From: Loxodes magnus
Taxonomy: Eukaryota > Ciliophora > Karyorelictea > Loxodida > Loxodidae
Length of the DNA stretch: 64,000 nucleotides
Assembly: GCA_946699065.1 (NCBI GenBank)
Contig: CAMPDV010000319.1
Location: forward strand, 124,001-188,000
Direction: 5' to 3'
The notes under the pieces are model-generated. The model was given only the letters and a program-made list of their open reading frames with translations. It was not told the DNA's origin and did no database searches. Below, piece by piece: positions 1 to 32,614 of the stretch. Numbering within the stretch: the stretch's first letter is position 1; each line of letters opens with the position of its first letter. Position numbers and translations under genes: made by a program.

Positions 1-3000
1 ACCGTATTATCATAACTTCCCGATACGATGAACTCTGAATCACTGGATATAGCCACAGCATATACTTAACTAGTGTGACCACTCATGGTCTTACAGGTAC
101 CTGTCTTGACGTCCCATAGTCTCACCGTATAATCTCCACTTCCCGAAACGATGAACTCTGAATCACTGGATATGGCCACAGCATATACTTAACTAGTGTG
201 ACCACTCATGGTCTTACAGGTACCTGTCTTGACGTCCCATAGTCTCACCGTATAATCATCACTTCCCGATACGATGAACTCTGAATCACTGGATATAGCC
301 ACAGCATATACAACACTAGTGTGACCACTCATGGTCTTACAGGTACCTGTCTTGACGTCCCATAGTCTCACCGTATAATCATAACTTCCCGATACGATGA
401 ACTCTGAATCACTGGATATAGCCACAGATCATACATTACTAGTGTGACCACTCATGGTCTTACAGGTACCTGTCTTGACGTCCCATAGTCTCACCGTATA
501 ATCTTCACTTCCCGATACGATGAACTCTGAATCACTGGATATAGCCACAGATCATACATTACTAGTGTGACCACTCATGGTCTTACAGGTACCTGTCTTG
601 ACGTCCCATAGTCTCACCGTATTATCATAACTTCCCGATACGATGAACTCTGAATCACTGGATATAGCCACAGCATATACATAACTAGTGTGACCACTCA
701 TGGTCTTACAGGTACCTGTCTTGACGTCCCATAGTCTCACCGTATAATCATAACTTCCCGATACGATGAACTCTGAATCACTGGATATAGCCACAGATCA
801 TACCAAATTTGTGTGACCACTCATGGTCTTACAGGTACCTGTCTTGACGTCCCATAGTCTCACCGTATAATCTTCACTTCCCGATACGATGAACTCTGAA
901 TCACTGGATATAGCCACAGATCATACCAAATTTGTGTGACCACTCATGGTCTTACAGGTACCTGTCTTGACGTCCCATATCTCACCGTATTATCATAACT
1001 TCCCGATACGATGAACTCTGAATCACTGGATATAGCCACAGCATATACAACACTAGTGTGACCACTCATGGTCTTACAGGTACCTGTCTTGACGTCCCAT
1101 AGTCTCACCGTATTATCATGACTTCCCGATACGATGAACTCTGAATCACTGGATATAGCCACAGATGATACAGAACTAGTGTGACCACTCATGGTCTTAC
1201 AGGTACCTGTCTTGACGTCCCATAGTCTCACCGTATAATCTGCACTTCCCGATACGATGAACTCTGAATCACTGGATATAGCCACAGATAATACAGAACT
1301 AGTGTGACCACTCATGGTCTTACAGGTACCTGTCTTGACGTCCCATAGTCTCACCGTATTATCTGCACTTCCCGATACGATGAACTCTGAATCACTGGAT
1401 ATAGCCACAGCATATACAGAACTAGTGTGACCACTCATGGTCTTACAGGTACCTGTCTTGACGTCCCATAGTCTCACCGTATTATCATAACTTCCCGATA
1501 CGATGAACTCTGAATCACTGGATATAGCCACAGCATATACAACACTAGTGTGACCACTCATGGTCTTACAGGTACCTGTCTTGACGTCCCATAGTCTCAC
1601 CGTCTTATCATAACTTCCCGATACGATGAACTCTGAATCACTGGATATAGCCACAGCATATACAGAACTAGTGTGACCACTCATGGTCTTACAGGTACCT
1701 GTCTTGACGTCCCATAGTCTCACCGTATTATCATAACTTCCCGATACGATGAACTCTGAATCACTGGATATAGCCACAGATAATACAGAACTAGTGTGAC
1801 CACTCATGGTCTTACAGGTACCTGTCTTGACGTCCCATAGTCTCACCGTATAATCATAACTTCCCGATACGATGAACTCTGAATCACTGGATATAGCCAC
1901 AGATCATACCAAATTTGTGTGACCACTCATGGTCTTACAGGTACCTGTCTTGACGTCCCATAGTCTCACCGTATAATCTTCACTTCCCGATACGATGAAC
2001 TCTGAATCACTGGATATAGCCACAGATCATACATTACTAGTGTGACCACTCATGGTCTTACAGGTACCTGTCTTGACGTCCCATAGTCTCACCGTATTAT
2101 CATAACTTCCCGATACGATGAACTCTGAATCACTGGATATAGCCACAGCATATACATAACTAGTGTGACCACTCATGGTCTTACAGGTACCTGTCTTGAC
2201 GTCCCATAGTCTCACCGTATAATCTTCACTTCCCGATACGATGAACTCTGAATCACTGGATATAGCCACAGCATATACAGAACTAGTGTGACCACTCATG
2301 GTCTTACAGGTACCTGTCTTGACGTCCCATAGTCTCACCGTATTATCATAACTTCCCGATACGATGAACTCTGAATCACTGGATATAGCCACAGATAATA
2401 CAGAACTAGTGTGACCACTCATGGTCTTACAGGTACCTGTCTTGACGTCCCATAGTCTCAACGTATAATCATAACTTCCCGATACGATGAACTCTGAATC
2501 ACTGGATATAGCCACAGCATATACATTACTAGTGTGACCACTCATGGTCTTACAGGTACCTGTCTTGACGTCCCATAGTCTCACCGTCTTATCATAACTT
2601 CCCGATACGATGAACTCTGAATCACTGGATATAGCCACAGATCATACATTACTAGTGTGACCACTCATGGTCTTACAGGTACCTGTCTTGACGTCCCATA
2701 GTCTCACCGTATAATCATCACTTCCCGATACGATGAACTCTGAATCACTGGATATAGCCACAGCATATACAGAACTAGTGTGACCACTCATGGTCTTACA
2801 GGTACCTGTCTTGACGTCCCATAGTCTCACCGTCTTATCATCACTTCCCGATACGATGAACTCTGAATCACTGGATATAGCCACAGCATATACATTACTA
2901 GTGTGACCACTCATGGTCTTACAGGTACCTGTCTTGAAGTCACATAGTCTCACCGTATAATCTTCACTTCCCGATACGATGAACTCTGAATCACTGGATA

Positions 3001-30000: not shown

Positions 30001-32614
30001 AGTCTCACCGTCTTATCATAACTTCCCGATACGATGAACTCTGAATCACTGGATATAGCCACAGATGATACATAACTAGTGTGACCACTCATGGTCTTAC
30101 AGGTACCTGTCTTGACGTCCCATAGTCTCACCGTCTTATCATAACTTCCCGATACGATGAACTCTGAATCACTGGATATAGCCACAGATGATACATAACT
30201 AGTGTGACCACTCATGGTCTTACAGGTACCTGTCTTGACGTCCCATAGTCTCACCGTCTTATCATAACTTCCCGATACGATGAACTCTGAATCACTGGAT
30301 ATAGCCACAGATCATACCAAATTTGTGTGACCACTCATGGTCTTACAGGTACCTGTCTTGACGTCCCATAGTCTCACCGTATAATCATCACTTCCCGATA
30401 CGATGAACTCTGAATCACTGGATATAGCCACAGATCATACCAAATTTGTGTGACCACTCATGGTCTTACAGGTACCTGTCTTGACGTCCCATAGTCTCAC
30501 CGTATTATCATAACTTCCCGATACGATGAACTCTGAATCACTGGATATAGCCACAGCATATACTTAACTAGTGTGACCACTCATGGTCTTACAGGTACCT
30601 GTCTTGACGTCCCATAGTCTCACCGTCTTATCATCACTTCCCGATACGATGAACTCTGAATCACTGGATATAGCCACAGATGATACATAACTAGTGTGAC
30701 CACTCATGGTCTTACAGGTACCTGTCTTGACGTCCCATAGTCTCACCGTACAATCTCCAATTCCCGATACGATGAACTCTGAATCACTGGATATAGCCAC
30801 AGATGATACATAACTAGTGTGACCACTCATGGTCTTACAGGTACCTGTCTTGACGTCCCATAGTCTCACCGTACAATCTCCAATTCCCGATACGATGAAC
30901 TCTGAATCACTGGATATAGCCACAGCATATACTTAACTAGTGTGACCACTCATGGTCTTACAGGTACCTGTCTTGACGTCCCATAGTCTCACCGTCTTAT
31001 CATAACTTCCCGATACGATGAACTCTGAATCACTGGATATAGCCACAGCATATACTTAACTAGTGTGACCACTCATGGTCTTACAGGTACCTGTCTTGAC
31101 GTCCCATAGTCTCACCGTACAATCTCCAATTCCCGATACGATGAACTCTGAATCACTGGATATAGCCACAGCATATACTTAACTAGTGTGACCACTCATG
31201 GTCTTACAGGTACCTGTCTTGACGTCCCATAGTCTCACCGTCCTATCTCCACTTCCCGATACGATGAACTCTGAATCACTGGATATGGCCACAGCATATA
31301 CTTAACTAGTGTGACCACTCATGGTCTTACAGGTACCTGTCTTGACGTCCCATAGTCTCACCGTCTTATCATAACTTCCCGATACGATGAACTCTGAATC
31401 ACTGGATATAGCCACAGATGATACATAACTAGTGTGACCACTCATGGTCTTACAGGTACCTGTCTTGACGTCCCATAGTCTCACCGTCTTATCATAACTT
31501 CCCGATACGATGAACTCTGAATCACTGGATATAGCCACAGCATATACTTAACTAGTGTGACCACTCATGGTCTTACAGGTACCTGTCTTGACGTCCCATA
31601 GTCTCACCGTATAATCATGACTTCCCGATACGATGAACTCTGAATCACTGGATATAGCCACAGCATATACTTAACTAGTGTGACCACTCATGGTCTTACA
31701 GGTACCTGTCTTGACGTCCCATAGTCTCACCGTACAATCTCCACTTCCCGATACGATGAACTCTGAATCACTGGATATAGCCACAGATGATACATAACTA
31801 GTGTGACCACTCATGGTCTTACAGGTACCTGTCTTGACGTCCCATAGTCTCACCGTACAATCTCCAATTCCCGATACGATGAACTCTGAATCACTGGATA
31901 TAGCCACAGCATGTACATAACTAGTGTGACCACTCATGGTCTTACAGGTACCTGTCTTGACGTCCCATAGTCTCACCGTACAATCTCCACTTCCCGATAC
32001 GATGAACTCTGAATCACTGGATATAGCCACAGCATGTACATAACTAGTGTGACCACTCATGGTCTTACAGGTACCTGTCTTGACGTCCCATAGTCTCACC
32101 GTACAATCTCCAATTCCCGATACGATGAACTCTGAATCACTGGATATAGCCACAGCATATACTTAACTAGTGTGACCACTCATGGTCTTACAGGTACCTG
32201 TCTTGACGTCCCATAGTCTCACCGTCTTATCATAACTTCCCGATACGATGAACTCTGAATCACTGGATATAGCCACAGATGATACATAACTAGTGTGACC
32301 ACTCATGGTCTTACAGGTACCTGTCTTGACGTCCCATAGTCTCACCGTATTATCATAACTTCCCGATACGATGAACTCTGAATCACTGGATATAGCCACA
32401 GCATACGCAACATTAGTGTGACCACTCATGGTCTTACAGGTACCTGTCTTGACGTCCCATAGTCTCACCGTCCTATCTCCACTTCCCGATACGATGAATT
32501 CTGAATCACTGGATATAGCCACAGCATATACACAACTAGTGAGACCACTCATGGTCTTACAGGTACCTGTTTTGACGTCCCATAGTCTCACCGTACAATC
32601 TCCACTTCCCGATA
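1..32614 (-). repeat. 123-bp tandem array, ~265 copies
   Basis: Head-to-tail 123-bp units with near-identical sequence. Differences concentrate in the codons after GHTS (Ser, Val, Tyr, Asn, Gln, or Asn-Leu), the two codons after the next Val (Tyr-Ala, His-Ala, Leu-Ser, Ser-Ser, Trp-Ser), the residue before the Asp of the SGSxD turn (Tyr, Asp, Glu, Ala, His, Gly, Arg; Ser sometimes Ile) and the residue after it (Asn, Tyr, Lys, Arg, Cys, rarely Gln). Synonymous positions are almost fixed. Larger segments are repeated: about 3660-4860 with 6489-7689 (offset 2829 bp, 23 units), 24170-25760 with 25767-27357 (offset 1597 bp) and 19744-20226 with 23434-23916 (offset 3690 bp, 30 units). Units at the right edge (32400-32614) are the most divergent. 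Confidence 0.98.

Follow-up and report, generated by a model that had tools for sequence, protein, structure and literature searches.

Variable WD40 propeller genes and an abundant satellite of their blade in the ciliate Loxodes magnus

We analysed a 64,000-nucleotide stretch of the Loxodes magnus assembly (C319:124001-188000, hereafter the window), which holds a long tandem array of WD40 blades and, ~19 kb upstream on the same strand, an intact WD40 gene (Table 1). The assembly scanned comprised 705,730,643 bases in 7,843 contigs. The minus strand is the coding strand of the array, and blade codons are numbered from WD onward. Tandem Repeats Finder (TRF) gave a period of 123, 265.2 copies, 95% matches and 0% indels, in agreement with the initial annotation, which had described a near-invariant 41-residue blade repeated 265 times. 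The number is correct for the window, but not for the array, which overruns the left window edge. The stretch C319:94001-156614 (62.6 kb) yielded 508 units, 500 of 123 bp and eight of 122 bp, and the array was present in every stretch sampled further left (C319:1-400, 34001-34250, 64001-64400 and 74001-74250). If continuous between these stretches, it spans ~156 kb up to the contig start.

Table 1 Features of the window, with positions counted from its first letter
Feature	Position	Strand	Basis
Tandem 123-bp WD40 blade array (41-aa unit)	1..32614	-	TRF and unit reading
Two 122-bp units, one base short at codon 41	unit starts 3189, 1099	-	Deletion placement
Four more 122-bp units, duplicated pair	unit starts 26555, 26310, 24958, 24713 (24713..26555)	-	Deletions best placed at codons 33 and 16
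Intact WD40 gene, 759 aa	51401..53680	-	ATG at 53680, TGA at 51403-51401
N-terminal half, 436 aa: Cys-rich cluster, long middle region, pentapeptide repeats	52373..53680	-	Pfam scan
Pentapeptide-repeat stretch, residues 382-434	52379..52537	-	PF00805, 30.7 bits (cut-off 20.2)
WD40 domain, one seven-bladed propeller	51404..52372	-	Seven Pfam WD40 stretches and predicted structure
Blades 2-4, close to the array unit in sequence; surface codons 16, 17, 19, 20, 35 and 37 variable	51857..52225	-	Blade comparison
LINE (long interspersed nuclear element) endonuclease-like fragment adjoining the array 5' edge	32626..33039	-	PF14529, E=1.3e-5, 25.5 bits, under the cut-off of 27.4
MORN-like array, ~44 units of 138 bp	34598..40691	+	Anchored units
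99-bp array, 98% matches, strongly strand-skewed	44797..49198		Repeat scan

Variation among the array units was concentrated in a few codons. Among 500 units, codon 17 departed from its commonest triplet in 370, codon 37 in 330, codon 35 in 281, codon 19 in 152 and codon 20 in 144; codons 15, 16 and 34 did so in 33, 35 and 26 units, and each of the other 33 codons in at most 26. When 150 of these units were used, the five main codons held 91% of the nonsynonymous diversity, and the ratio of nonsynonymous to synonymous diversity (piN/piS) was 2.86. The MORN-type array of the window, taken as a control (28 of 44 anchored units), had a piN/piS of 0.86, with 40% of the replacement diversity in its top five codons. 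The variation is therefore not even, and the early description of a few variable codons per blade, often differing by two bases, proved accurate. Each amino-acid state at codons 17, 19, 20, 35 and 37 is written with a single codon, and many pairs of states lie two or three bases apart (12 of 15 pairs at codon 17, for states seen at least five times). Codon 19 is TGA in 62 of the 500 units, replacing Y, S, L or H; it is sense only under a reading as tryptophan, which agrees with the karyorelict code. In L. magnus UGA means tryptophan or stop depending on context, according to the main text of the genome paper (PMC11441545).

The variable codons fall into two cassettes, 15-20 and 34-38. Among the possible combinations of common cassettes, 79 of 110 were present in the array, the two cassettes not being independent (Cramer's V 0.31), and the four-gamete test was complete in 729 of 2475 cases. 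Exact runs of 5-11 units were repeated and covered 141 of the 508 units, while 20 shuffles reached 3 at most. The recurrence of long exact runs, the combining of cassettes and the complete four-gamete tests together point to block duplication and exchange within units as the processes that built the array.

The array does not have the appearance of a gene. The 122-bp units interrupt its frame, the codon-41 deletion being seen again left of the window at -2713 and -4803, and at the 5' edge we found neither a gene start nor an N-terminal exon joining the array. At the 33 constant codons we counted 27 types of mutation, of which 10 are silent and 17 change the amino acid. As this split is close to expectation (silent share 0.24-0.26), the constant codons appear near-neutral, without clear purifying selection. 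Genome-wide, an exact 45-bp blade core had 224,112 copies and a control string none. At 123 bp per core this corresponds to ~27.6 Mb, or 3.9% of the assembly, a figure that exact matching undercounts and assembly errors may inflate. By its abundance and its long tandem arrays the blade unit has the character of satellite DNA. It has in common with satellite DNA in general the hundreds of thousands of copies, the long tandem arrays and the block duplications, and differs from it in having for its unit the blade of a gene family that is conserved and still has intact members. The frameshifts and the near-neutral drift favour an untranslated array, which, to judge from its units, looks like a satellite that carries the imprint of earlier selection and is now drifting.

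The neighbouring gene was translated with TAA and TAG as glutamine and internal TGA as tryptophan. In its 436-aa N-terminus, a Pfam scan at E<=1 gave only matches to three pentapeptide families, two weak zinc-finger matches and one ferredoxin-like match; neither a NACHT nor a HET domain was among them. The Cys cluster is RING-like, but far below the Pfam cut-off (zf-C3HC4_4, E=0.29; zf-RING_5, E=0.63), and possibly gives the protein an adaptor-like role. Relatives of the N-terminus outside Loxodes were limited to four weak matches among 4,999 candidates, with 13-24% query coverage; this is weak evidence for their absence, because standard-code protein calls would break at TAA and TAG. For the WD40 domain, an AlphaFold2 model from a 15-sequence alignment had 28 strands of at least three residues, with a predicted local distance difference test score (pLDDT) of 91.4 and a predicted template modelling score (pTM) of 0.89. 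In WD40 domains, residues of the d-a loop and the b-c turn form the binding face. By the strand limits of blade 1 in the model, codons 16/17 would lie before strand a, 19/20 at its start, and 35/37 between strands b and c, and the variable codons are thus predicted to sit on the expected binding face. The initial annotation had called for such a mapping onto a propeller, and this places the variable codons where it had supposed.

A genome search with 427 aa of the N-terminus gave 98 scored matches, including the query, from 3,140 first-look candidates. Ninety-five of the 98 were full length, with many in-frame TAA and TAG and at most one TGA each. One copy (G000:C2166:16345-17625) had an N-terminus score identical to that of the window gene, and its WD40 blade sequences were the same; it may be an allele, a haplotig or a recent duplicate. 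The 98 matches are therefore not a gene count, since identical copies of this kind may be alleles or haplotigs. We read the WD40 parts of 31 loci, the window gene and 30 others. Twenty-five were readable in a single frame, 24 of them with seven blades and one with six, and one locus was incomplete at its start. The idea that a single giant WD40 protein carries the repertoire found no support in this comparison: the intact carriers are dispersed genes, nearly all seven-bladed. A single 265-blade protein was also rejected on the array itself, for its lack of an N-terminal exon, its 1-bp frameshifts and the drift in its constant codons. As to the location of the family, nine of ten matches lying within 60 kb of a contig start, on contigs numbered up to 400, were on the minus strand, which directs them towards the contig end; near right ends, the few matches that were checked lay on the plus strand. 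The layout is perhaps subtelomeric or repeat-bounded.

The dispersed genes vary at the same codons as the array. Amino-acid entropy per codon was computed over 85 central blades. They came from 30 loci, the identical C2166 copy having been dropped, and include a few blades of broken-frame loci; in two of the 85 a 1-bp shift falls within the first codons. Entropy was highest at codon 35 (3.42 bits), followed by codons 37 (2.52), 19 (2.49), 16 (2.29), 17 (2.02) and 20 (1.40), and each remaining codon had at most 0.85 bits. In five full genes (all 10 pairs) we compared the proportions of synonymous (pS) and nonsynonymous (pN) differences. The N-terminus was constrained, with a pS of 0.350 and a pN of 0.084 (pN/pS 0.24). 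The fixed codons of blade 1 had a pS of 0.348 and a pN of 0.066, and blades 5-7 a pS of 0.308 and a pN of 0.133. At the fixed codons of the central blades, pS was 0.111 and pN 0.047, pairs with the six-blade gene on C560 having the highest pS (0.16-0.25). With a silent divergence of 0.111 against 0.350 in the N-terminus, the central blades have been homogenised across paralogues. At their variable codons, pN was 0.386 and pS 0.194. Concerted evolution and diversification, both proposed at the outset, are thus measurable in this family.

Blades 5 and 6, unlike the array unit in sequence, showed ordinary silent divergence and were still variable at most of the corresponding codons. They were picked by a motif that fixes many constant residues and that 27 and 28 of the 30 genes pass; their constancy is partly imposed by it, and codon 37 of blade 6 is set by it as well. 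The motif has no such effect on their silent divergence or their surface variation.

The initial annotation had pointed to the fungal HNWD genes, self/non-self recognition genes known in Podospora anserina as het-d, het-e and het-r. The available text of PMC1805685 describes strongly selected codons 7, 9, 25 and 27, surrounding codons 8 and 26 that are under purifying selection. One pair falls in the d-a loop and the other in the b-c turn, at a spacing of 18 codons; certain positions are under weaker selection as well, and a model puts the variable codons on the binding face. Equated by spacing and loop position, with the sequences unaligned, these four codons correspond to Loxodes codons 17, 19, 35 and 37, which flank V18 and D36, and the match supposed earlier was thereby borne out. 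Loxodes codons 16 and 20 vary in addition to these four. As far as the consulted sections of PMC1805685, PMC2873952 and PMC12222747 describe it, the two systems have in common WD40 repeats that are nearly identical and move within and between paralogues, a binding surface on the top face, the shuffling of cassettes and conversion tracts that are short. They differ in architecture: neither NACHT nor HET turned up in the window gene, and its seven blades stand against the 11 repeats usual in HNWD. They differ also in scale, with 98 scored family matches against 10 HNWD genes, and in that Loxodes is a ciliate with a genome-wide blade satellite. The attribution to a ciliate, and a scale far beyond that of Podospora, stand. 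Because neither NACHT nor HET was found in its N-terminus, we do not file the window gene as a NOD-like receptor (NLR) or HNWD protein, and membership in these groups was rejected.

Two further systems bear comparison. The ANK, TPR and WD repeats with high internal conservation in fungal NLRs resemble the Loxodes blades in being homogenised, with few positively selected surface sites; they belong to another architecture, and copies on the scale of a satellite are not described in the available text of that study (PMC4986451). Repetitive bacterial WD40 propellers (PDB 2ymu; cyanobacterial NB-ARC-WD40) have the WD40 fold and a high similarity from blade to blade. Their N-termini and taxon are different, and the comparison covers fold and similarity.

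We consider it probable that L. magnus has a convergent, HNWD-like recognition repertoire without NLR architecture, accompanied by a coding-derived satellite of its blade. The blade would consist of a nearly fixed scaffold and about six surface codons, 16/17 and 19/20 in the d-a loop and at the start of strand a and 35/37 in the b-c turn, diversified by selection for different binding partners. We infer that the selection was for binding and that the genes serve recognition. Central blades would be swapped among paralogues, and probably with the arrays too, by unequal crossing-over or short gene conversion. Such exchange could keep the scaffold and its silent sites uniform while shuffling the surface codons as the cassettes 15-20 and 34-38. 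The arrays would have expanded by block duplication of founder blades derived from the central blade of seven-bladed proteins and, grown from such founders, would bear the imprint of the repertoire while drifting.

Sequence sharing between genes and arrays was followed by looking up the cassettes of four gene blades genome-wide. The 34-38 cassette of window blade 3 was found 268 times and the cassette pair of window blade 4 210 times; a 15-20 cassette of the C1319 gene had 4,216 copies, and two hybrid strings of window cassettes had 0 and 20. A rare 15-20 cassette of the C4457 gene had 22 genome copies, of which 20 stand on C1740, spaced by multiples of 123 bp. That it is nearly private to a single gene and a single array supports the exchange of sequence between genes and arrays, which we regard as likely.

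The blade is not the only coding repeat in tandem. A second WD40 satellite family, with a 126-bp unit (WDFQTGSCLRTFTGHADSVLSIAISPDQKWIVSASYDDTIKV), was found on C1503, C119, C6957 and C9; on C6957 it fills nearly the whole contig, and all 128 spacings there measure 126 bp. By the strings used it is rarer, with 1,229 exact cores (one core variant) against 224,112. It is variable at the homologous codons 18, 20, 36 and 38 in the five stretches scored, C9b being left out. Within the window lies the MORN-like array, so labelled from its motif, in which the unit often gains or loses a single base: 28 of the 43 spacings measure 138 bp, 11 measure 139 bp and 4 measure 137 bp. Pfam had no match for one 122-aa stretch translated from the end of the array. 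This array is another coding repeat turned satellite. Pyrimidine- or purine-rich repeats (CTTCTTTTCTTACTTTTC) resembling the 99-bp array were seen at several contig ends.

Several observations weigh against a repertoire as we describe it, or limit it. The selection is deduced from paralogues under recombination, which can distort measures of nonsynonymous and synonymous change. The variation is not everywhere restricted to the expected codons: blade 5 is variable also at two codons past SDS (1.32 and 1.93 bits), and blade 6 at one codon past VIFS (1.30 bits), with codon 20 fixed. The second satellite family varies at codons 12-14 as well, and at 15 and 17 in some stretches; in the stretch from C6957, codon 12 varies more (25 of 128) than codon 20 (7) or codon 36 (6). 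Five of the 31 loci have a broken frame in the WD40 part, from a pseudogene or a short intron. The main text of the genome paper reports a macronuclear assembly of 706 Mbp with 231 Mbp of low-complexity tandem repeats, the misassembly of which its authors suspect (PMC11441545), and our array length and copy number are for this reason only approximate. As to exchange between genes and arrays, the 15-20 cassette and the cassette pair of window blade 3 are confined to the window gene and its copy on C2166, and of the 85 gene blades a single one has an exact counterpart among the units read from C319. On these two counts there is no support for the neighbouring array as an obvious donor to the gene beside it.

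Other explanations have to be set against this reading. In the simplest, there is a neutral coding satellite and no repertoire: blades that already differed were amplified by slippage or unequal exchange, and the uniformity of the central blades is a by-product. The frameshifts and the neutral split of changes at the constant codons agree with it, and the MORN-type array suggests that coding repeats may often be amplified here. However, it leaves unexplained why dispersed genes with a constrained N-terminus differ chiefly at surface codons, why blades 5 and 6 vary on the same surface without being array-like, and why the MORN array has no such concentration of codons. We think it quite unlikely. 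At the other extreme, the array could be translated whole, into a functional giant protein with blades in the hundreds. Its frame is mostly kept, 123-bp units prevailing, and UGA can be sense. Yet a LINE fragment occupies the 5' edge in place of a start or N-terminal exon, eight 1-bp deletions fall within 508 units of near-neutral constant codons, and the array end was not reached in the 62.6 kb read or in the stretches sampled to the contig start, all of which makes this explanation very improbable.

Two explanations concern how the variable codons are written. Were the arrays a silent donor library, from which cassettes are copied into expressed genes by directed gene conversion in germline or soma, as in antigenic variation, one would account for the very large reservoir of cores, for the recurrence of gene cassettes elsewhere in the genome (in one case mostly in a single array), for the position of the array downstream of the window gene in the same orientation, and for silent-site homogenisation limited to the central blades. 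The private cassette of window blade 3 speaks against it, and so does the distance of gene blades from the array: the nearest C319-array unit differed at 5.1 positions on average and the nearest blade of another gene at 4.3 (491 units, one array). Dedicated machinery for such copying was not identified, no search having been aimed at it. A library of this kind seems unlikely to us. Targeted hypermutation, for example by a diversity-generating retroelement, would fit the confinement of variation to defined codons, and the third base of codons 16 and 17 in gene blades is mostly T. Adenines of constant codons were rarely altered (15 occurrences in 500 units), and the changes are not adenine-specific. 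In addition, the use of one codon per amino-acid state at the five main array codons points to few origins and shuffling instead of repeated mutation. A retroelement of this type was disfavoured on both grounds, and hypermutation as a whole is hardly credible.

A literature search for Loxodes with WD40 found nothing, most subscription papers and bioRxiv preprints lying outside its reach, and WD40 is absent from the main text of the L. magnus genome paper (PMC11441545). For WD40 and satellite DNA in ciliates, only work on the Merlin DNA transposon surfaced in the texts available, with nothing among the papers listed by a broader satellite search, and for WD40 repeats and diversifying selection in ciliates there was none. 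The coupling of a diversified WD40 repertoire to an exceptionally abundant coding satellite is probably a new phenomenon.

The convergent repertoire with its blade satellite would have several implications. It is doubtful that a genome-scale library of more than 200,000 blade copies acts, through recombination, as the source of new surface cassettes for ~100 seven-bladed receptors; if it did, a single-celled eukaryote would possess a combinatorial recognition repertoire with an unprecedented donor pool. A protein module that has become a major satellite links the concerted evolution of a gene family to the birth of a satellite. Diversification apparently settled on the same four WD40 codons twice, once in a fungus and once, independently, in a ciliate, which suggests a general rule for making a propeller a variable recognition surface. 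For L. magnus, the family may represent a candidate ciliate recognition system, directed at kin, mating partners, parasites or symbionts.

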